Origin: Bacteroidota bacterium
Lineage (GTDB): Bacteria; Bacteroidota; Bacteroidia; CAIKAF01
DNA: 37,003 nt
NCBI GenBank assembly: GCA_016866335.1
Contig: VGMT01000021.1
Coordinates: 1-37,003 of the forward strand
Reading direction: 5' to 3'
Below the pieces are notes generated by a model that was not told where the DNA came from, searched no databases, and worked only from the letters and a program-made list of their open reading frames with translations. The position numbers and the translations under genes are program-made. Below are positions 218-28,658 of this stretch, piece by piece (within the stretch, counting starts at the first letter, position 1; every line of letters starts with the position of its first letter).

Positions 218-225
218 TACCTTTG
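218..225 (+). promoter_or_regulatory. Bacteroidota -7 promoter element TACCTTTG
   Basis: The octamer is a perfect match to TAnnTTTG and lies 21 nt before the ATG at 247. It overlaps an upstream in-frame TTG at 223, which argues for ATG 247 as the start. No convincing -33 TTG at the usual spacing was found. It lies just outside the IS30 fragment. Confidence 0.55.
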
Positions 226-246
226 TTTCTTAAAAAAATTAGGATT

Positions 247-2721
247 ATGAATTCCTTCAAACTTAGCCTCATCCTTTTGTGTTTGCCCATGGGCTTGATT
301 TTTGCCCAAACCAACCCAGCTCCGCGAACCCTGCCTTATTCAGAAAACTTTAATACTATGTTGGCACCGACCTATCCTACGGGCTGGGTGGGCTGGAGCC
401 AAGCCATCCTGGCGGGTGCGTTTCAAACCGCAGCACCTACCGGTGACCGTGTTCTTGCTGCCAATGGTACCGCAGCCCTTACGACCAACAACGTGTACGA
501 TTTTTCTCAAAAACTTGGCTTTTTGAACAGTGGAACCACGAACAATGGTTTGGCAACGGCCTTGGTAACCACTGGCCTTGCAAGCATTAACGTGAGTTAT
601 TCCATTATGACCATCCGCGACAACAATGAACGCACTTTGGTGGTTGGTTTGCAGTATCGGGTAGGTACTTCAGGAGCCTTCACCAACATTCTTGGAACCT
701 CATACCACAACAACCTTACTGTTCAAACATCAGGAAATGCTGGGGTCAATGTGCAGACTAGAAGCATTACCCTGCCTGCAGCGTGCAACAACCAATCGGT
801 GGTTCAGCTTCGTTTTATTGCCAAAGACTCTACGGGTGCCGGTGCTCGCCCAAGTTTTGCTATCGATAATTTTTCAGCTTCCGGAACCAGCTGTTCAGGG
901 TTTTCGATTTCGGCTTCGGCCCAATCTGCCACAACTTTTTGCCAAGGTGGTTCGGTGGTCTTAAAAGCCACTGGAGCAAACAGTTACCTTTGGAACAACA
1001 ATCAAAGTGGAGATTCCATTGTGGCAACCCAATCAGGTTCATACTCCGTTGTTGGTACAGACCCTTTTGGCTGTACTGCCAGCGCTGGCCCTATTGTTGT
1101 AACCGTAAACCCTTCACCTGCATTAACCTTAACACCAAACGGGCCAACCGTTCTGTGCCAAGGTGATTCGGTAACACTGCTAGCCTCGGGTGCCAATACT
1201 TACATTTGGAATACCGGTCAAAACGCAGACTCAATTACGGTTTCGGCGGCAGGAACGTATCAGGTGGTTGGTACTGACCAAAATGGGTGTTCAGATTCCA
1301 GCTCGGTGCAGATTGGCGTCAATCCTTTGCCTTCCATCAGTATATCTTCAAATGGTCCCTTGACTTTTTGCCAAGGTGGTCAGGTTACTTTGTTGGCATT
1401 TGGTGCCCAAAGCTTCCTGTGGTCCTCTAATTTGGTGGGCGATTCCATCGATGTTCAACAATCGGGAGGGTATTATGTAATTGGAACAGATCAAAATGGA
1501 TGCTCCGATACATCTCAAACCCTACAGGTTATTGTAAATCCTTTGCCTGTGGTTACCATTACTCCAAACGGACCCACCACTATTTGCCAGGGCAATTCTG
1601 TTCCATTTACAGCTCAAGGCGGCAGCACCTACGTTTGGCCATGCGGTTGCCCAGGTCAAACTCAAAACATTAACCTTGCTGGGCCGGTAACGGTTTGGGG
1701 AACCGATCAAAATGGCTGCAGCGATTCTTCAAATACCGTAATGGTTACCATCAATCCAAACCCAATGGCTCAAATAATTCCCAGCGGGCCCACCGTATTT
1801 TGCCAAGGCGGTTCAGTTAGCCTAATTGGGGTAACCGGACTGAGCAATTCATGGAGCAACGGGCAAATTTCCGATTCAATCACCGTAACCCAATCGGGAT
1901 TATACAGCTTAACCGTTACCGACGGCAATGGCTGCACCGACAGCTCTTTTATTCAGGTTACGGCCAATCCACTGCCAATTATTTCTGTTTCTGCCTTAGG
2001 AAATACAACCTTATGCCAAGGCGATAGCGTTGAAATTGCGGCCACAGGGGCACTTATTTACCAATGGAATACCAACTCAAATTCTGCCAGCATCTGGGTT
2101 AGCACTTCAGGAAATTATACGGTGTTTGGAACCGATCAAAACGGATGTTCCGACAGCTCAAATACGATTGCAATTGTTGTTTTAAATCCCCCCGTTGTTG
2201 TTCAGCAACCTAGCAACGTTCAAGAATTTGTTGGCAATTCAGCCACCTTTACTGTGGGTTCTCAAGATCCCAACGATACCTTCCAATGGCAGGGCAATAC
2301 CGGCTCAGGATTTACAAATCTAAGCAACGGAGGTCAGTACGCAGGAACAACAACAAATATGCTTAGCATCAGCAACTTAACCTTGGCCAATTCGGGCTAC
2401 ACATTCCGTTGCCAAGTCAGCAATTTGGCTTGCTCTACAAACAGCCAACAGGCTTCCCTAACGGTAAGTCCAAATTCGAGTTTCACGAACAACGGAAGTT
2501 CAGAATTCAGCATTTTCCCAAATCCAGCCCACGATTTCATCTCGGTTTGGCAATACGGGAAAAAGGTTTCCGATTCCTACACCCTTAGCGATTTGCAGGG
2601 CCGAATTTTGGGCCAAGGCAGGCTTAATCCTGGTTCTACCTCGCTGAATATTGAATTTTTGCCCGCCGGCACTTACCAGATTTCTGCAGGTGGTAGCGCA
2701 ATTCGCTTTATCAAAGAGTAG
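247..2721 (+). CDS. T9SS-secreted surface protein with six Cys-containing Ig/PKD-like repeats
   Basis: An 824-residue protein starting at ATG 247. A signal peptide (about residues 1-21, ending IFAQ) precedes a jelly-roll-like N-terminal domain starting LPYSENFNT (about 28-215). Six repeats of about 72 residues follow, each with the pattern CQGxSV...A.G...Y.WN.G..xxSI.V...G.Y.V.GTDQNGCSDSS...V.VNPLP. Then come one Ig-like domain (about 655-745, QPSNVQEFVGNSATF) and a C-terminal type A sorting domain (about 752-824, FSIFPNPAHDFISV ... LPAGTYQIS). The sorting domain implies export by Sec, then by the type IX system, and anchoring or release at the cell surface. Repeat proteins of this type are often adhesins, but the ligand is unknown. 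The fourth repeat is odd: it has WPCGCPGQ instead of WNTGQ, adding a Cys pair. Confidence 0.85.
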   Translation: MNSFKLSLILLCLPMGLIFAQTNPAPRTLPYSENFNTMLAPTYPTGWVGWSQAILAGAFQTAAPTGDRVLAANGTAALTTNNVYDFSQKLGFLNSGTTNNGLATALVTTGLASINVSYSIMTIRDNNERTLVVGLQYRVGTSGAFTNILGTSYHNNLTVQTSGNAGVNVQTRSITLPAACNNQSVVQLRFIAKDSTGAGARPSFAIDNFSASGTSCSGFSISASAQSATTFCQGGSVVLKATGANSYLWNNNQSGDSIVATQSGSYSVVGTDPFGCTASAGPIVVTVNPSPALTLTPNGPTVLCQGDSVTLLASGANTYIWNTGQNADSITVSAAGTYQVVGTDQNGCSDSSSVQIGVNPLPSISISSNGPLTFCQGGQVTLLAFGAQSFLWSSNLVGDSIDVQQSGGYYVIGTDQNGCSDTSQTLQVIVNPLPVVTITPNGPTTICQGNSVPFTAQGGSTYVWPCGCPGQTQNINLAGPVTVWGTDQNGCSDSSNTVMVTINPNPMAQIIPSGPTVFCQGGSVSLIGVTGLSNSWSNGQISDSITVTQSGLYSLTVTDGNGCTDSSFIQVTANPLPIISVSALGNTTLCQGDSVEIAATGALIYQWNTNSNSASIWVSTSGNYTVFGTDQNGCSDSSNTIAIVVLNPPVVVQQPSNVQEFVGNSATFTVGSQDPNDTFQWQGNTGSGFTNLSNGGQYAGTTTNMLSISNLTLANSGYTFRCQVSNLACSTNSQQASLTVSPNSSFTNNGSSEFSIFPNPAHDFISVWQYGKKVSDSYTLSDLQGRILGQGRLNPGSTSLNIEFLPAGTYQISAGGSAIRFIKE
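892..2193 (+). repeat. Six tandem Ig/PKD-like coding repeats (about 216 bp period)
   Basis: Six consecutive in-frame units begin near the Cys of each FCQGGSV-type motif and end in VNPLP-type linkers. Each has one Cys near the start and one in the NGC motif, which probably pair. The DNA is diverged between units, so the conservation is at protein level. Confidence 0.8.
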
Positions 2722-3057: not shown

Positions 3058-6000
3058 ATGAAACGTATACGTTTTGCCTCTGTAGTTGTCTTTTTTGTCC
3101 TCGCTCTGTCAATCCGTTCGCAAGTGCCAGCCTACGTCAATCCATCGGGTTTGGTAGGTTGGTGGGGTTTTAATGGAAATGCCCAAGATGCGAGTGGCAA
3201 TGGCTTTAACGGATCAGTAAACGGAGCAACCCTAGCCAACAACAGATTTGGCAATGCCTTTTCGGCTTATTCTTTTGATGGCACCAACGACCGCATTACG
3301 GTTGCAGACGCCCAAGCCCTGAATCCCGGGCAAATGACCATGAGTATTTGGGTGCGCCCTCAGGCATTTGGCCCAAGCGAGCAATACATCGTGAATAAGT
3401 CGTTTGACCCAGGTCCCCGGCATTGGTCCATTCGCATTACCAGCACCGGACAGCTACAGGTTGAAACCCGAATCAACAATACGTATTATTTGTACTCAGC
3501 AACCGGACCTTCAGCGAATTTATCTTTAAATCAATGGACCTTTTTATGCCTTATGTTCGATGGAACCCGAACCATTTTGCTTCGCAACCAAGACACCGTT
3601 GTGAATGTTGCGCAAAGTGGTAGTATGACCTCCTCAAATTTGGCCTTGAACTTTGGCTACTTTCCGCATGCCAACATGCCTCCTTTTGGGTATTTTTTCA
3701 ATGGTCAATTGGACGATGCCGGTATGTGGAATCGGCCGCTGACCAAGTGCGAAGTCAATAGGCTGTACAACGCCTCTGTATTAACCAACAATACCATCCT
3801 TTCTTCTACCCCCTATGCACCAATGACCCACGTGGTAAATAGTGCGGGGCTGATTTACAATCCCGATTCCATTAGCATTACTCAGGGCGATGCAGTTCAA
3901 TTCCAAATCGGAGGGAGCCACGATGCCAGGGAAGTTTCACAAGCCACCTACAATGCCAATGGAAATACTTGGAATGGTGGGTTTCAAACTGCATTCGGAG
4001 GTGGATTGGTTAATTTGCCCAACCTAGGAACCTATTATTATGTATGTACACCCCATGCTAGCCTTGGAATGAAGGGGCGAATTTTTGTTCAACCCTACGC
4101 CGGGAATCAAGCCCCTATTTCTATTTGTCAGGGCGACAGTTCCCAATTGCTAGCCACTGGCTCTCAATCGTACGTGTGGAGCAACGGTAAAACCGGCAGC
4201 AATACCTACGTTAAAAATACCGGTGTTTATTATGTGGTGGGCTTTGACCAACATGGATGTCCAGACACTTCGGCCAGCATTAACGTTACGGTTAATCCAA
4301 GGCCAACAGCTACGGTTGTAGCTTCGGGCCCCCTTCAATTTTGTTCTGGGGGATCTGTAAGTCTAACAGCTTCGGGGGGTACGTCCTACCTGTGGAATAC
4401 AGGATCAACCTCGGCGGCAATTCAGGTTCAAACCTCCAGCACGTTTTCGGTAATCGTTACCGATGCCAATGGCTGCAAAGATACCTCGGCAGTTTTTACC
4501 ACTCAGGTGTTTCCTAATCCCATTGCCCAAATTCAAAACCTAGGTCCCACCTCCTTTTGCTCTGGTGCTTCGGTTCAATTGCTGGCCTTGGGAGCACCCA
4601 ATGTGCTTTGGTCAAACGGCAGCACCAACGACACGCTCACCGTTACTCAAAGTGGCTTTTATCAAGCTACTGTTACTGATACCAACGGCTGTTCTGCCTT
4701 AAGTCCCTCGGTTCAGGTGAGCGTTTTTCCTCTTCCAAACGCGCAAATATCTGCTTCGGGACCTACTACGTTCTGCCAAGGAGGCTCCGTACAATTGTCG
4801 GCCACCGGAGGAAATACCTATCTGTGGAGTACGGGTCAATCGGGGGCCTCGATTTCTGTGAATAACCCCGGAACCTACTTTGCGGTCGCTTCTTCCAACC
4901 AAGGTTGTCAAGATTCAAGCAACGTTATTTCCATCACGGTCAATCCCTTGCCTCTGGTTTCCATTCAAGCTCAGGGACCTTTGTCTTTCTGTCCAGGCCA
5001 GTCGGTGGCTATGAATGCCCAAGGAGCCCAAACCTATGTATGGAGCAACGGACAAACAGGAAGCAACATACTGGTTTCGCAAGCAGGAACGTTTGGTGCA
5101 ACGGGCACAGATTCTCTGGGTTGTCAATCGGTTTCAAACCTTCTTTCAACCTCTTTGCATCCTGTTCCTGTGGCTCAAATTCAAGTTCAAGGGTCCTTGC
5201 AGTTCTGCCCCGGCGACAGTGTGGTATTGTTGGCCCAAGGGGGCGATACCTATATATGGAGCAATGGTAGCACAACCGCTCAGCAGGTAATTCAACAAAA
5301 TGGGGCTTTTTCCGTTGTTGCCAGCAACTCCTTTGGGTGCTCCGACACCTCAACTACCTTAACCACTCAGGTGGTTGCCGCCCCCACTGCAGTAATAACG
5401 CCTTCTGCCCCTTTGACCTTTTGCCAAGGCGATTCGGTGGTCTTGCAGGCCTCAGGGGGCAGCACGTATCTATGGAACAACGGCAGTACGAGCAGCAGCA
5501 TTACGGTTAATATAGCCGGAAATTGGTTTGTTCAAGCTTTTCTCGGTACCGGTTGTGTGGATACTTCTCAGTCTGTAAATACTCAGGTTTTGAGCCTTCC
5601 GAATGTGCAGGCTTCCGCTTCAGGGCCCAGCTCCTTTTGCTTCGGAGGTCAGGTCTATATTTTAGCATCTGGAGCCTCTACCTATCTATGGAACACAGGA
5701 CAAATCACCGATTCCATTTCCGTGGCTTCATCGGGCAATTACACGGTGCTGGGTACCGATTTGAATGGTTGCAGCAATGCCTCAGCGCCTGTAACGGTAA
5801 CTGTTTTTCCCCTTCCGATTTTAAGTTTAAGTCCCAGCGGTTCCGTTTCAATTTGTTCCACAGACAGTCTTGAGTTGACCGTTCAAGGGGCCTTGTCTTA
5901 CCTTTGGAACGATGGTATTCAGGTATCTTCGCGGTACCTAAACCTAGCCGGATCGTATTGGGCTACCGGCACCGACGCCAACGGATGTGCTGCTGAAAGC

Positions 6001-6567
6001 GATACGCTTACTCTTTCTGTACTACCCACACCCCAATGGATTGTTCAGCCTTTAGACAGTTCGGTTTTGGTGGGTAACCCAGTTGGCTTTACCGCTCAGA
6101 TTCAGGGTGGCAATGCGGTGTATCAATGGCAAATAAACCGTGGCAACCTATGGGAAATGCTTGCCGATACAGGTACCGTGAGCGGTTCCAATTCAGCTAA
6201 CCTTAGCTTGGCTTCGGTTGATTCAGCTTGGAACGGATACCGTTTTCGTTGTATTGCGAACCTCGATGGTTGTTCCGACACCTCAGACCTAGCAACATTA
6301 AACGTTGAAATTCCCGTTAATGGCTATTGGACGCCAAGCGAAATGCCCTGGTCCATTCTTCGCAATCCTTCGGGTTCCAAACTTCAGATTCTAGGGCCCG
6401 ATGCTGAAGTACGGTACCGCATTTTTGATTTTTCAGGACGATTACTTCTGCAAGGAAAGGAATCGGGTAAAGGCCTGACTATTGATGTTGGAAGTTTGCC
6501 ATTGGGTTGCTATTTACTGGAGCTTAATTCAGAAATACACCGTTGGAATACCCGGTTTTGCCCTTGA
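3058..6567 (+). CDS. T9SS-secreted protein: LamG domain, plastocyanin-like cupredoxin, nine Ig/PKD-like repeats
   Basis: A 1169-residue protein from ATG 3058, where a typical signal peptide begins (MKRIRFASVVVFFVLALSIRS); an upstream in-frame start at 2986 would bury it. A LamG/concanavalin-like lectin domain (about 30-245, GLVGWWGFNGNAQDASGNG) is followed by a cupredoxin domain (about 256-350) with H288, C330, H333 and M338 in VCTPHASLGMKG, the C-x2-H-x4-M arrangement of a type 1 copper site. Nine repeats of about 72 residues follow, like those of the preceding gene, then an Ig-like domain (about 1000-1085) and a divergent T9SS-type sorting domain (LQILGPDAEVRYRIFDFSGR ... LPLGCYLLEL). It is a paralogue of the upstream gene with a different head. 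Surface location and copper binding are inferred. Confidence 0.85.
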   Translation: MKRIRFASVVVFFVLALSIRSQVPAYVNPSGLVGWWGFNGNAQDASGNGFNGSVNGATLANNRFGNAFSAYSFDGTNDRITVADAQALNPGQMTMSIWVRPQAFGPSEQYIVNKSFDPGPRHWSIRITSTGQLQVETRINNTYYLYSATGPSANLSLNQWTFLCLMFDGTRTILLRNQDTVVNVAQSGSMTSSNLALNFGYFPHANMPPFGYFFNGQLDDAGMWNRPLTKCEVNRLYNASVLTNNTILSSTPYAPMTHVVNSAGLIYNPDSISITQGDAVQFQIGGSHDAREVSQATYNANGNTWNGGFQTAFGGGLVNLPNLGTYYYVCTPHASLGMKGRIFVQPYAGNQAPISICQGDSSQLLATGSQSYVWSNGKTGSNTYVKNTGVYYVVGFDQHGCPDTSASINVTVNPRPTATVVASGPLQFCSGGSVSLTASGGTSYLWNTGSTSAAIQVQTSSTFSVIVTDANGCKDTSAVFTTQVFPNPIAQIQNLGPTSFCSGASVQLLALGAPNVLWSNGSTNDTLTVTQSGFYQATVTDTNGCSALSPSVQVSVFPLPNAQISASGPTTFCQGGSVQLSATGGNTYLWSTGQSGASISVNNPGTYFAVASSNQGCQDSSNVISITVNPLPLVSIQAQGPLSFCPGQSVAMNAQGAQTYVWSNGQTGSNILVSQAGTFGATGTDSLGCQSVSNLLSTSLHPVPVAQIQVQGSLQFCPGDSVVLLAQGGDTYIWSNGSTTAQQVIQQNGAFSVVASNSFGCSDTSTTLTTQVVAAPTAVITPSAPLTFCQGDSVVLQASGGSTYLWNNGSTSSSITVNIAGNWFVQAFLGTGCVDTSQSVNTQVLSLPNVQASASGPSSFCFGGQVYILASGASTYLWNTGQITDSISVASSGNYTVLGTDLNGCSNASAPVTVTVFPLPILSLSPSGSVSICSTDSLELTVQGALSYLWNDGIQVSSRYLNLAGSYWATGTDANGCAAESDTLTLSVLPTPQWIVQPLDSSVLVGNPVGFTAQIQGGNAVYQWQINRGNLWEMLADTGTVSGSNSANLSLASVDSAWNGYRFRCIANLDGCSDTSDLATLNVEIPVNGYWTPSEMPWSILRNPSGSKLQILGPDAEVRYRIFDFSGRLLLQGKESGKGLTIDVGSLPLGCYLLELNSEIHRWNTRFCP
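4108..6033 (+). repeat. Nine tandem Ig/PKD-like coding repeats
   Basis: Nine in-frame units of about 72 residues, each starting near a FCxGxSV motif and ending in a VxPxP linker. Most carry Y(L/V)W(S/N)NG and DxxGC motifs with two conserved Cys. The unit is the same as in the gene at 247-2721, which has six copies. Confidence 0.8.
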
Positions 6568-6776: not shown

Positions 6777-7994
6777 ATGCGTTTATTGTTTTCCCTAATT
6801 CTGTTTTTGTCGGCTCAGGCGATTTACGCTCAAGGAGTTCGAATTGGAGGCAATCCCGGCACTCCTGATCCCTCGGCTATTTTAGATGTACACGATACCA
6901 CCAAGGGGTTTTTGCCTCCGCGGTTAACAACGAGCCAGCGGAATTCGATTCAGAATCCTGCCGATGGATTGATTGTTTTTAACACCACAACCAATTGCTT
7001 GCAAATGTCCACATCGGGTATTTGGTTTGATATTCGATGCCAATGTACCTATCTACCCAATCCAAGTTTTTCGGGTTCCAACCAAGGTACTACCAATCAG
7101 GCAATTTCATTTACGCCCGCCGTGAACCTAGGACTTTCTTATTCTTGGACCTTTCAAAGCGGCAGTCCTTCCAGCAGCAACAGTGCATCACCTTCCGTTA
7201 CTTGGACTCAAACAGGTAGTTTTAACGTTGTTTTGGTTGTTACCGATGCGAATGGTTGCGTTGATTCCAGTACTCAGCAGGTTACCATTAGCAACCAAGC
7301 ACCCCAAAGCTGTTGGCACATCAAACAAAACAACCCCAATGCAACCAGCGGTATGTATCTGTTAGATCCAGATGGTCAAGGGGGCGCAAGTGCCGACCAG
7401 TTTTATTGCGACATGACTACAAGTGGTGGTGGATGGACCCTTATTGTCCTAACCAACGGCAACGTATCTGGACATCCAAACGTAGGTTTGTCGGCTGCTA
7501 AAAACACATTAATAAGTACGAATGGAGGTCAAGTCTCGGCCAATTTAGATGCCTTTGATCAATGGACGGGCACCAATTTTTGGAATCAGTTGGGAAGTCA
7601 AGGGCAGATGCTGTGGAAGGTAGGGTCTGCAAGCGGCAGTATTTTGGATATAGTTCGAAATAATTTTAATATCTACAGCAACGGCGATAGGGTTAGTTTC
7701 AGTGCTTATCAGGCATTGCAAGGAGGTATCCCCAACATTGATTACAACAACAATGGTTATTTGCAGGCGGCAGGTAGCAGTACTGGAGGCAGCAGTTGTA
7801 CCATTGAATCAAGCCCCAGTGTGGGATTACACGGGCCTTGGTTTTACCATAGCTGCAGTAATGTTAGTCCTTGGTGTACCGGCCATTCTGATTGCAGTGG
7901 CTTGCCCGTGCGGATGCAATGGAGGAATCAAAGCAATTATACAACGGCCACTTCTCCCAGTTGTTCGAACCACGGAGAAATCTATGTGCGCTAG
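6777..7994 (+). CDS. Secreted protein with PKD-like domain and C-terminal fibrinogen-like domain
   Basis: A 405-residue protein with a signal peptide (about 1-19, ending AIYAQG). A short module follows, AILDVHDTTKGFLPPRLTT and then GLIVFNTTTNCLQ (about 32-80), which is common at the N-terminus of Bacteroidota surface proteins. Next is a PKD-like domain (about 92-175, FNVVLVVTDANGCVDSS). The C-terminal part (about 182-405) starts SCWHIKQ and contains FYCDMTTSGGGWTLI, the hallmark of fibrinogen-like/COLFI domains, which in other proteins bind sugars or acetylated groups. No T9SS sorting domain follows, so the route to the surface is unclear. It is paralogous to 15349-16866 in both the N-terminal module and the C-terminal domain. 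Confidence 0.8.
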   Translation: MRLLFSLILFLSAQAIYAQGVRIGGNPGTPDPSAILDVHDTTKGFLPPRLTTSQRNSIQNPADGLIVFNTTTNCLQMSTSGIWFDIRCQCTYLPNPSFSGSNQGTTNQAISFTPAVNLGLSYSWTFQSGSPSSSNSASPSVTWTQTGSFNVVLVVTDANGCVDSSTQQVTISNQAPQSCWHIKQNNPNATSGMYLLDPDGQGGASADQFYCDMTTSGGGWTLIVLTNGNVSGHPNVGLSAAKNTLISTNGGQVSANLDAFDQWTGTNFWNQLGSQGQMLWKVGSASGSILDIVRNNFNIYSNGDRVSFSAYQALQGGIPNIDYNNNGYLQAAGSSTGGSSCTIESSPSVGLHGPWFYHSCSNVSPWCTGHSDCSGLPVRMQWRNQSNYTTATSPSCSNHGEIYVR

Positions 7995-15348: not shown

Positions 15349-16866
15349 TTATTTAATCCAAACCTGATGAATGGTGTGGTTGTTAGCACCATTTGGATAA
15401 TCATCAACCTCCCAACGGTTGCCCAGCCCTTGAATCCCCCAATGAAATTGAGACGACCGAAAAAATGAGAAATCAGTTAGGGCAAAGTTCCCCATATCGT
15501 TAAAATAGGAATCTACCTGAGCAGGTATATTTGCTGTATGCCCTGATAAAGGGGAGAATGAAGAGTTTAATCCAATAAAAGACCCTGTTCCACTTTTCAT
15601 ATAAGACCGGACTGCATTTAAGTTTGTTTTAAAATGAACAATACGTCCATGTCCAGATGTGCGGCCATAAAATCGAACCGACGAAAACGAAAGCAGATTC
15701 GCCAAACTGTTCGAAACATGCCCCCAAGCCGTTGGGTGGTTGCTTTCATTGCTGCCAAGCGCAGTAGCATTTTGAATGGGCAATCGATTGCTCAATACCA
15801 ATAAGTTTGGATTGCTTCCGGCACTATGAAAATAATTCAAAACTAAGGTCCAGCCACCTCCATCGGTGGTCATGTCGCAATAACACTGAAAGGGAAGCAT
15901 CGGCCCCGTCGTGTCTGGATCCAACCAATAAATCCCCGTCCCAACGCTTTGACCTTGCGAAATGATTTGCTGGCAATTCAAGGCTGGGCTGTTGCTCGCT
16001 TCCCCCAATTTCTTGGTGGTAAACGTGATTTCAGAACCATAACTTGTCCCTGCTACATTGCTGGCATATGCCCGAAGATAGTAGGTTGTATTGTTTTGTA
16101 GATTTTGTAAGGTTGAAGTAAAAACGCCCGTTCCTGAGCCTGAAATTACGGTTGAATTTAAAGTAGTAGGATTTGCTGAGGTGGAATAGCATACCCCTCG
16201 AGCCAAAACCGGAGCCCCGCCATCTTGGCTAACATTTCCCCCAGATACCGCTGAATTTCCACCAATATTTGTTGCGCTGTCTGTTCCAACCGTGGGGGGA
16301 TTCGGAGTAGTAAAACTAAGTTCGTTTCCATATCCCGTTCCCTCTGAATTTGTGGCATAGGCACGCACAAAGTAGGTTTTTCCATTTTGAAGCGGCCCCA
16401 GAATACTGCTGAAAACGCCCATACCCACGCCATCGACCGTAAAGGAATCGGTTAAGGTTGGGCTGGCTGCGGTGTCCCAACAAACACCTCTGGCTGTAAC
16501 CAAGGTGCCCCCATCGTCGGTAACCGTTCCCCCCGACTGGGCCTGAGTTCCTGTAATTCCACTCACCAATGCTGTTAATACCAAGGGTGGTTTGGGACAC
16601 ATCGAATACCATCCCGATGGCCGATAGTATTGCATGCAATTCACGTCCGTATTGAATACCATTAGGCCAAATGCTGGATTTTGAATTGAATCGCGTTGAC
16701 CTGTAGTTAATCTAGGAGGTAAAAATCCCTTTGAGTTGCTTTCTACATCAAGCATGGCCGCAGGGTGTGGCGCATTTCCCGTTTGATTTATGCCAACCTG
16801 CCCATGGACAGCGGCAATAAACAGCCAAAAGGCCAAACCATACCAAGATCGAATACGATTTCCCAT
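15349..16866 (-). CDS. Secreted protein with two FN3-like repeats and C-terminal fibrinogen-like domain
   Basis: A 505-residue protein from ATG 16866 (MGNRIRSWYGLAFWLFIAAVHGQ, a signal peptide). The longer frame starts at a TTG. An N-terminal module AAMLDVESNSKGFLPPRLTT and GLMVFNTDVNCMQYY is nearly the same as in the protein at 6777-7994. Two repeats of about 95 residues follow (about 95-190 and 191-290), each with GGTVTDDGG...ARGVCWDT, LQNGKTYFVRAYATNSEGTGYG and SFTT, typical of Bacteroidota FN3-like modules. The C-terminal domain (about 300-505) has CYCDMTTDGGGWTL, the fibrinogen-like/COLFI hallmark. There is no T9SS sorting domain. The ligand is unknown; binding of glycans or host proteins would be inference. 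Confidence 0.8.
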   Translation of the reverse strand: MGNRIRSWYGLAFWLFIAAVHGQVGINQTGNAPHPAAMLDVESNSKGFLPPRLTTGQRDSIQNPAFGLMVFNTDVNCMQYYRPSGWYSMCPKPPLVLTALVSGITGTQAQSGGTVTDDGGTLVTARGVCWDTAASPTLTDSFTVDGVGMGVFSSILGPLQNGKTYFVRAYATNSEGTGYGNELSFTTPNPPTVGTDSATNIGGNSAVSGGNVSQDGGAPVLARGVCYSTSANPTTLNSTVISGSGTGVFTSTLQNLQNNTTYYLRAYASNVAGTSYGSEITFTTKKLGEASNSPALNCQQIISQGQSVGTGIYWLDPDTTGPMLPFQCYCDMTTDGGGWTLVLNYFHSAGSNPNLLVLSNRLPIQNATALGSNESNHPTAWGHVSNSLANLLSFSSVRFYGRTSGHGRIVHFKTNLNAVRSYMKSGTGSFIGLNSSFSPLSGHTANIPAQVDSYFNDMGNFALTDFSFFRSSQFHWGIQGLGNRWEVDDYPNGANNHTIHQVWIK

Positions 16867-16888
16867 AAATAAACAACGATTTTCCAAT

Positions 16889-27153: not shown

Positions 27154-27615
27154 ATGGCAAGCATCGAAGAAGAAATTAAACAAAAGTCCTTTGTTAGCGA
27201 ACAAGCTCGGGCAACCATTAATCTGCTCTTTACGGCCAACTGGCTGCAAAGCAAAATTAGCGCAGTTTTAAGGCCTTATGGGTTATCGCCTGAACAATAC
27301 AATGTATTGCGTATTCTCAATGGCAGCCACCCCAATGCCCTTTGCCAAAAAGATATTTTGGACCGAATGATTGCTCCAAAATCTAACTTAACCTTAATAA
27401 TCGGCCGCCTTAAGCAAAAAAACTACATTGAGGTAAACAGGGCCAACCACGACAAGCGGGAATACAGCATATCTATTACCGAGGCGGCAAGAAGCATGCT
27501 CCAAGAGGTTAACCATGTTTTAAATCAACATCAATCCTCTACACTTCCTCTAATTGAAAAGGACGCCAAAAGACTAAATGCTTTGCTCGAAAAAATCCGA
27601 AACCCAGAAACCTAA
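27154..27615 (+). CDS. MarR-family transcriptional regulator
   Basis: A 153-residue regulator from ATG 27154 (MASIEEEIKQ). The frame continues upstream to 26902 only by running through the GC-rich repeat, and the promoter argues against that. The winged-helix core (about 45-115) shows LSPEQYNVLRILNGSHPNALCQKDI, MIAPKSNLTLIIGRLKQKNYIEV and the wing ANHDKREYSISITEAA. MarR proteins bind DNA as dimers and respond to small ligands or oxidants. It is divergent from the cobalamin locus and its stop overlaps that of the cytochrome peroxidase gene by 4 bases (convergent). Targets are unknown. Confidence 0.85.
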   Translation: MASIEEEIKQKSFVSEQARATINLLFTANWLQSKISAVLRPYGLSPEQYNVLRILNGSHPNALCQKDILDRMIAPKSNLTLIIGRLKQKNYIEVNRANHDKREYSISITEAARSMLQEVNHVLNQHQSSTLPLIEKDAKRLNALLEKIRNPET

Positions 27616-28658
27616 GGGGCCGAAAAAGCAGGGTTGCTCAAAAAATCGGTGTCGGTAAGGGTCAACAAAAAGGCAATCAATGCCTCTTTCTCTTGGGTAC
27701 TCAAATTCAAACCCGTACCCACATGCTTCATCAATGGGTCAATGGTCGACGAAGGATGCCCGCCCATATCATAGTGGTCAATTACCTCGTTCAATGTGGC
27801 AAATCGGCCATCGTGCATATAGGGAGCCGTTTGAGCGATGTTCCTTAAGGTCGGCACCTTAAATACACCAATTAAATTTGGGTTCGCCACAATTCCACCT
27901 AAGCCTGAGTCTTGAAATTCTCCTTCTTTATCCAAGCCATTGTTCATAAAACTAAAGGTGGTAAACTGAAAACGCTCCTCAAAAGGATGGCAATGAAAAC
28001 AATCGGCCGCTTCGGTAACGTACAAATTCATGCCCTGCAATTCCTGTGGAGTTAAAGCCGCTTGCCCAAGAATGTATTGGTCAAACCGAGAATTGCCTGA
28101 AATTAGGGTGCGTAAAAATTGAGCCAATGCCTTGGTTATATGAGTTGAATCAATGTATTCGATTCCGAAAGCTTGTTTGAAAAGGCTAGGATAATCAGGG
28201 TGTTGATTCAATCTGTCCGTGGCCGCTAGCCAAGGCAAATTCATTTCTATGGGATTGGGAACCGGTTCCAACAACTGTTCTTCCAACGAAAAGGACCTGC
28301 CGTCCCAGAACAACCGATTGTGGTAAGCTAAATTAATTAAGGGCATCGCATTCCTATTCCCCTGCGCCCCTGTAATTCCAGTACTAACTGCCGTTGCTTC
28401 GGCAAAAGAAAGGGATTGTTTATGGCAGCTTGAGCAGGATTGGGTGAAATCGCCCGATAAAATGGGGTCATAAAACAGCTTGCGGCCCAAGGCCACTCCC
28501 TCTACCGTTAAAGGATTGTCAAAAGGAATTTTAGGTTCTGAAAAATGAGGTGGTAGATTTAGGCTGTATGGAGTCGGGTTATAGGGTTCTTCTGCACAAG
28601 AAAACAAGCCCAACAGGACCGGTAGCAACCACACTACATGCAAACCTCTATTTTTCAT
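27612..28658 (-). CDS. Diheme cytochrome c peroxidase (CCP/MauG family) lipoprotein
   Basis: A 348-residue protein with a lipoprotein signal (LLGLFSC, Cys21), so it is probably anchored in a membrane facing the periplasm. Two c-type heme motifs are present, C75-S-S-C-H79 and C220-F-H-C-H224. Conserved family segments include GRKLFYDPILS, NAMPLINLAYHNRLFWDGR and KVPTLRNIAQTAPYMHDGRFATL, where the Met is a likely axial ligand. The family reduces hydrogen peroxide with electrons from cytochrome c; MauG-like relatives modify proteins instead. Its start overlaps the stop of the DUF7935 gene as TAATG, so the two are coupled. Confidence 0.9.
   Translation of the reverse strand: MKNRGLHVVWLLPVLLGLFSCAEEPYNPTPYSLNLPPHFSEPKIPFDNPLTVEGVALGRKLFYDPILSGDFTQSCSSCHKQSLSFAEATAVSTGITGAQGNRNAMPLINLAYHNRLFWDGRSFSLEEQLLEPVPNPIEMNLPWLAATDRLNQHPDYPSLFKQAFGIEYIDSTHITKALAQFLRTLISGNSRFDQYILGQAALTPQELQGMNLYVTEAADCFHCHPFEERFQFTTFSFMNNGLDKEGEFQDSGLGGIVANPNLIGVFKVPTLRNIAQTAPYMHDGRFATLNEVIDHYDMGGHPSSTIDPLMKHVGTGLNLSTQEKEALIAFLLTLTDTDFLSNPAFSAP

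Follow-up and report, generated by a model that had tools for sequence, protein, structure and literature searches.

A plastocyanin-type cupredoxin domain between a LamG domain and Ig-like repeats in a Bacteroidota protein with a marginal type IX sorting domain

A 37,003-nucleotide stretch of DNA from a Bacteroidota bacterium, hereafter the window, encodes a PF00127-family cupredoxin domain with predicted type 1 copper ligands, which bears out an initial annotation made from the sequence. As its domains and fold model suggest, the gene product would be a secreted, adhesin-like multidomain protein with an intact plastocyanin-type domain. In the scheme that we propose, this domain would hold one copper as a type 1 center, the protein would leave the cell through Sec and the type IX secretion system (T9SS) and stay on the surface, and an Ig stalk of ~720 residues would hold the LamG and copper domains at its far end, the former probably binding glycans. 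The copper site would then pass single electrons between partners outside the outer membrane; we give this function, a one-electron carrier displayed at the surface, an even chance, and we favor it over copper buffering, its main rival. Blue copper proteins are familiar chiefly as carriers located in the periplasm, in thylakoids or bound to membranes. The present comparison adds that, judging from domain matches, T9SS-tagged cupredoxins occur on several kinds of stalk and that the form with a LamG head comes from this genus.

Domain layout and predicted copper site

The open reading frame (ORF) 3058-6567 begins with ATG, and the open frame around it already starts upstream, with TTG at 2986 (Table 1). 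An exposed Gln, as found after the probable signal peptide, is presented as a tendency of Bacteroidetes signal peptidase substrates in one study (PMC5837995). The initial annotation had placed the cupredoxin between the LamG domain and nine Ig-like repeats: this order agrees with the Pfam domain positions, and nine repeat starts were found, all eight spacings being exactly 72 aa. A tenth, divergent Ig stretch adjoins the regular repeats. In a two-domain model of LamG and cupredoxin, all residues but one between 1 and 226 had pLDDT <50 and LamG was covered by only 4 alignment rows; the LamG part of this model failed, so that it gives no orientation of the two domains relative to each other.

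Table 1. Features of the cupredoxin gene, with nucleotide positions in the window
Feature	Position	Strand	Basis or remark
Whole gene: LamG / cupredoxin / nine Ig-like repeats / divergent Ig / T9SS sorting domain	3058..6567	+	1169 aa
Probable signal peptide, residues 1-21, Gln at residue 22	3058..3120	+	judged by eye from sequence
LamG_3 / concanavalin A-like domain, residues 74-233	3277..3756	+	Pfam, E 2.3e-17
Plastocyanin-type cupredoxin domain, residues 258-345	3829..4092	+	PF00127; model and fold matches
Predicted copper ligand His288	3919..3921	+	alignments, scripted position check
Predicted copper ligand Cys330, sole cysteine in cupredoxin domain	4045..4047	+	alignment, scripted position check
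Predicted copper ligand His333	4054..4056	+	alignment, scripted position check
Predicted axial ligand Met338	4069..4071	+	alignments, scripted position check
Ig-like repeats, nine copies with a period of 72 aa, each with two cysteines; outer bounds approximate	4108..6027	+	Pfam Ig_7, scripted check
Divergent Ig-like stretch, residues 992-1067	6031..6258	+	Ig_3 match, weak (E 0.048)
T9SS type A sorting domain, residues 1103-1160, marginal score	6364..6537	+	Por_Secre_tail

The plastocyanin-like domain claimed for this protein is recovered by PF00127 at E 2e-7 (31.8 bits, cut-off 21.2). The positions and coordinates proposed for H288, C330, H333 and M338 were confirmed by script, and the C-x2-H-x4-M spacing is exact in the ORF. 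Structure prediction, which the initial annotation had suggested, yields a cupredoxin fold matching plastocyanin and pseudoazurin. The single-domain AlphaFold2 model reached pLDDT 93 and pTM 0.84, and its Foldseek matches included pseudoazurin (1.7e-7) and plastocyanin (5e-7). In VIA, the model superposes on the purple cupredoxin 5fc9 with Z 11.1 (1.5 Å over 81 residues) and on plastocyanin 1bxu with Z 10.8 (1.7 Å over 79 residues), two matches that are ties. A profile of 67 relatives found solved plastocyanins at E 2.3e-12 and the window domain as a single sequence did so at E 6.3e-6; in three alignments of the profile with solved structures, the H, C, H and M are in register with the plastocyanin H..C..H..M. 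A chance motif is ruled out by the Pfam score, the profile-to-PDB matches and the fold matches. The domain is predicted to hold a single copper in a type 1 center. A blue color is not guaranteed, since AcoP is reported to be a green single-domain cupredoxin (PMC4059628).

One genome per species was scanned, which gave 72 loci (L060-L131); the domain scan set comprised 72 proteins, the window protein and those of 71 loci. Alignment A3 excludes L130 (49 aa); L103, L104, L115, L128, L130 and L131, whose matches contain a stop or are partial, short or distant, are left out of alignment A4. Domain positions H44, C86, H89 and M94 are invariant in 67/67 rows of the subfamily alignment, where only the first His and the Met are free of collection bias because the Cys and the second His belonged to the collecting pattern. 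Among 21 matches collected from the phylum by profile, 15 have H, C, H and M in column; two more, L136 and L137, seem to be slips by one residue (L262, which covers the region of L136, reads G-F-H-N), L135 (complete in L261) has Tyr at the second His position, and L139, L143 and L148 make up the rest. For PF00127 loci, 30 were submitted and H, C, H and M were found in 15 of the 23 scored matches. As far as these alignments indicate, nearly every subfamily member examined retains the ligands.

The window protein was also compared with three same-genus orthologues. Conservation is given as identity and pN, without dN/dS, because most comparisons approach saturation at synonymous positions. The cupredoxin is better conserved than any other part of the protein (91-97% identity, pN 0.017-0.047), LamG being about 85% identical (pN 0.085-0.094) and the Ig repeats 72-82%. 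This pattern, together with the retention of the ligands, argues against a plain adhesin in which the cupredoxin fold would be only a beta-sandwich scaffold or a module that binds a ligand, and the copper site a relic or of minor importance. Such a protein would fit the position of the cupredoxin among adhesin-type domains, the many kinds of stalk that carry it in relatives and the loss of a ligand in one subfamily member, but we consider it rather improbable. The LamG-joined member with Tyr for the second His does suggest that the copper site is not indispensable everywhere, a point against the carrier reading.

Sorting domain and distribution of related proteins

The initial annotation had also described a type IX sorting signal. 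A sorting domain is present, but its score is marginal: Por_Secre_tail reaches 27.3 bits for a Pfam cut-off of 27, and TIGR04183 stays below its cut-off of 23 with both the ATG form (18.2 bits) and the longer frame (21.5 bits). The T9SS machinery, checked by SprA, is represented in the genome by a full-length match of 2281 bits, and Por_Secre_tail has 70 matches there, 55 of them above cut-off. Directly upstream of the cupredoxin gene lies a paralogue, 223-2721 (+), an Ig-repeat T9SS protein without cupredoxin that passes both sorting-domain cut-offs; between both T9SS genes, at about 2770-2870, is a G+C-rich, repetitive-looking stretch. The protein is plausibly displayed on the cell surface via T9SS; the marginal score of its sorting domain counts against a surface carrier. 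The cupredoxin might instead work in the periplasm, the sorting domain being unused. The thin excess of 0.3 bits for Por_Secre_tail and the failure of TIGR04183 point that way, as does the identity of the sorting domain among orthologues (57-90%), which in two of the three comparisons falls short of that of every other folded part. The presence of SprA and of the 70 sorting-domain matches, the adjacent paralogue and the sorting domains of relatives, found in 51/72 proteins at E up to 0.01 (best E 1.4e-16), speak against a periplasmic role, and we hold it to be quite improbable. Among the same 72 proteins, TIGR04183 is matched by 52 and the type B signal TIGR04131 by two.

The architecture had been implied to be singular, and this was rejected in part. 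T9SS-tagged cupredoxins recur and several are borne on long repeat stalks, a combination commoner than had been implied. LamG is matched by four of the 72 proteins (E up to 0.01): the window protein and L060-L062, same-genus orthologues by full-length alignment. Copper-bind is matched by 69/72 proteins at E up to 0.01. ORF lengths over the 72 loci are 190-290 aa in 36 and 450 aa or more in 20, and the scanned long forms carry PKD_6, CHRD, Calx-beta with LTD, LTD or SprB repeats. The deltaproteobacterial and myxococcal proteins (L102, L105, L110, L112-L114, L116, L119, L121-L123) stop inside the cupredoxin or a few residues after it. One of the 72 proteins matches the NADH:quinone oxidoreductase family PF00361. 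It is likely the ORF L125:6926-8791 (+) of an archaeal metagenome-assembled genome (MAG), 622 aa long with a cupredoxin near its N-terminus, because of its long membrane-type tail. L066, L073, L075, L093 and L097 come from MAGs whose titles name Chitinophaga pinensis or Chryseobacterium gleum; in the tree their domains group together or with unclassified Bacteroidales, and these titles look doubtful.

Within its own genome, which is 99% complete, the window protein is the only PF00127 match, and each of five other same-genus genomes searched contains one: three of these frames measure 1180-1189 aa and two, of 529-565 aa, are without LamG. PF00127 misses some cupredoxins, as the genomes G008 and G012 have no PF00127 match yet match the window domain. 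Over 395 genomes of the phylum, its own included, a subfamily profile matched 19 at E up to 1e-8 and four at E <1e-30; the subfamily is sparse but spread across the phylum. One of the latter four genomes, G390, encodes a cupredoxin and a LamG domain joined in another order. In the tree, whose bootstrap had not settled, the LamG copies, four in all, fall into a single clade (100/99) apart from the same-genus non-LamG copies L069 and L072. With the backbone of this tree unresolved, the LamG form may stem from either transfer or paralogy.

Neighboring genes, candidate partners and copper handling

A block of genes is conserved within the genus: the paralogue 223-2721, the cupredoxin gene, those for one GGGWT and one Disulph_isomer protein, an amidohydrolase and a GT2. 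In L060, where the contig starts a short way before the cupredoxin gene, no paralogue was found. Two fibrinogen-C-like proteins are encoded in the window at 6777-7994 (+) and 15349-16887 (-), both with Fibrinogen_C and the first also with the GGGWT domain. Neighbor clustering covered 563 ORFs from 66 loci (loci <6 kb left out), with 150 residues each and clusters judged by eye. No recurrent redox or copper neighbor cluster was recognized across these 66 loci, the largest cluster grouping 6 loci, and this result counts against the carrier reading.

Candidate partners were also sought among the other T9SS cargoes of the genome. The 67 frames read correspond to the 70 sorting-domain matches minus two on the window contig and the second match in frame C8:82405; the Pfam scan covered 10 of them. 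Only two of the 67 contain CXXCH. The first, L188:115-1512 (-) on contig C54, is a di-heme CCP_MauG peroxidase of 466 aa with two CXXCH and a sorting domain of 30.1 bits, apparently a heme protein exported to the surface. The second, L173:91-1650 (-) on contig C3, is a PHM-like Cu2_monooxygen protein; its CXXCH is N-terminal and its sorting domain scores below cut-off (21.2 bits). A second CCP_MauG-type protein, with no sorting domain listed, is encoded in the window at 27615-28658 (-). Seven regular-expression hits to copper-like motifs were obtained in T9SS cargoes, none of them cupredoxin-like by eye.

Azurin or pseudoazurin can donate electrons to bacterial di-heme peroxidases, which makes the MauG-like peroxidase an attractive partner. 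Its homologues were counted when they scored 400 bits or more and reached query residue 454 or beyond. Peroxidases with the C-terminal part were thus found in 6/6 genomes of the genus (split over two contigs in G004) and in 0/10 other genomes of the family; 2/44 genomes of the class (G016 and G052) have one, both without a PF00127 match, and G022 and G023 have a T9SS-type cupredoxin of the window subfamily and no peroxidase. Monooxygenase homologues occur in 37/60 genomes, including G006, G007, G010 and G013, which are without a PF00127 match, and are too common for a link with the cupredoxin. Since neither enzyme tracks the cupredoxin outside the genus, the pairing is backed by nothing beyond shared ancestry, which also counts against the carrier reading. 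A broader scenario would have the genus export a redox set through T9SS, composed of the cupredoxin, the MauG-like peroxidase and the PHM-like CXXCH monooxygenase, with the LamG-anchored cupredoxin relaying electrons to these enzymes at glycan surfaces beyond the outer membrane; we find it very doubtful.

Copper handling bears on the main rival, in which the domain would take up copper outside the outer membrane, for protection or scavenging, and would not transfer electrons. The copper ATPase model TIGR01511 has one partial match in the genome, at 20.8 bits for a cut-off of 397, while 13/14 control genomes pass; with a match so partial and weak, copper handling may differ in this organism. 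A heme-copper oxidase is present, for which the organism presumably needs copper. This oxidase and the weak ATPase match keep buffering a live rival. In addition, NF051440, the model for CopI, picks up 7/72 relatives at E up to 0.01, and the cupredoxin-like CopI is reported to be linked to copper tolerance (PMC13308877). Against buffering, NF051440 is not among the NCBIfam matches listed up to E 1 for the window protein, no copper gene was recognized among the neighbors of its gene, and a single site per 1169-aa protein would make a poor sink. We therefore regard surface buffering as unlikely, although more seriously than any other rival, and retain the one-electron carrier as the favored reading.

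In the open-licence papers searched, 'plastocyanin' and 'T9SS' were not found together, which is weak evidence of absence. There, 'plastocyanin' and 'sorting domain' met only in a haloarchaeal silver study, and 'cupredoxin' and 'type IX secretion' co-occurred only in unrelated passages. Recurrent T9SS-tagged cupredoxins with their ligands kept would place a one-electron site outside various Bacteroidota and Ignavibacteriota. If they are true carriers, donors and acceptors are needed outside the outer membrane; if they are copper buffers, they would represent a surface form of copper handling.

Comparison with known systems

The window domain has in common with plastocyanin (PF00127; PDB 1bxu, 1m9w) its predicted fold, the four ligands and the C-x2-H-x4-M spacing. 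It differs in being part of a secreted repeat protein, in its score against the plastocyanin equivalog TIGR02656, whose cut-off of 87.85 bits is not reached by the window protein (31.9 bits), and in the stretch between the first His and the Cys, where the window subfamily has a conserved E-V-x-x-x-T and G-G-F. Pseudoazurin and the purple cupredoxin of Nitrosopumilus maritimus (PDB 8k9p, 5fc9) are, together with plastocyanin, the best structural matches of the model; these are solved proteins of other organisms with 17-24% identity in the VIA rows.

Also related are the short T9SS-tagged cupredoxins of Bacteroidota and Ignavibacteriota (L063, L085, L107), which have the same copper-domain subfamily, a signal peptide and a sorting-type C-terminus. 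Unlike the window protein, they are about 200 aa long and lack both LamG and the Ig stalk. The long T9SS cupredoxin proteins resemble the window protein in that a long repeat region and a T9SS signal come after the cupredoxin, but their stalk domains are different (PKD_6 in L064, L066 and L078, CHRD in L083, Calx-beta and LTD in L093, SprB repeats in L098) and their cupredoxin occupies the extreme N-terminus, with no LamG before it. The G390 protein (L261:2612-6019 -) unites cupredoxin, LamG and sorting domain in one protein, as in the window, yet it has another domain order, SdrD_B and propeller-type repeats, and the Tyr for the second His, a natural ligand loss. Its union of cupredoxin and LamG is probably an independent combination.
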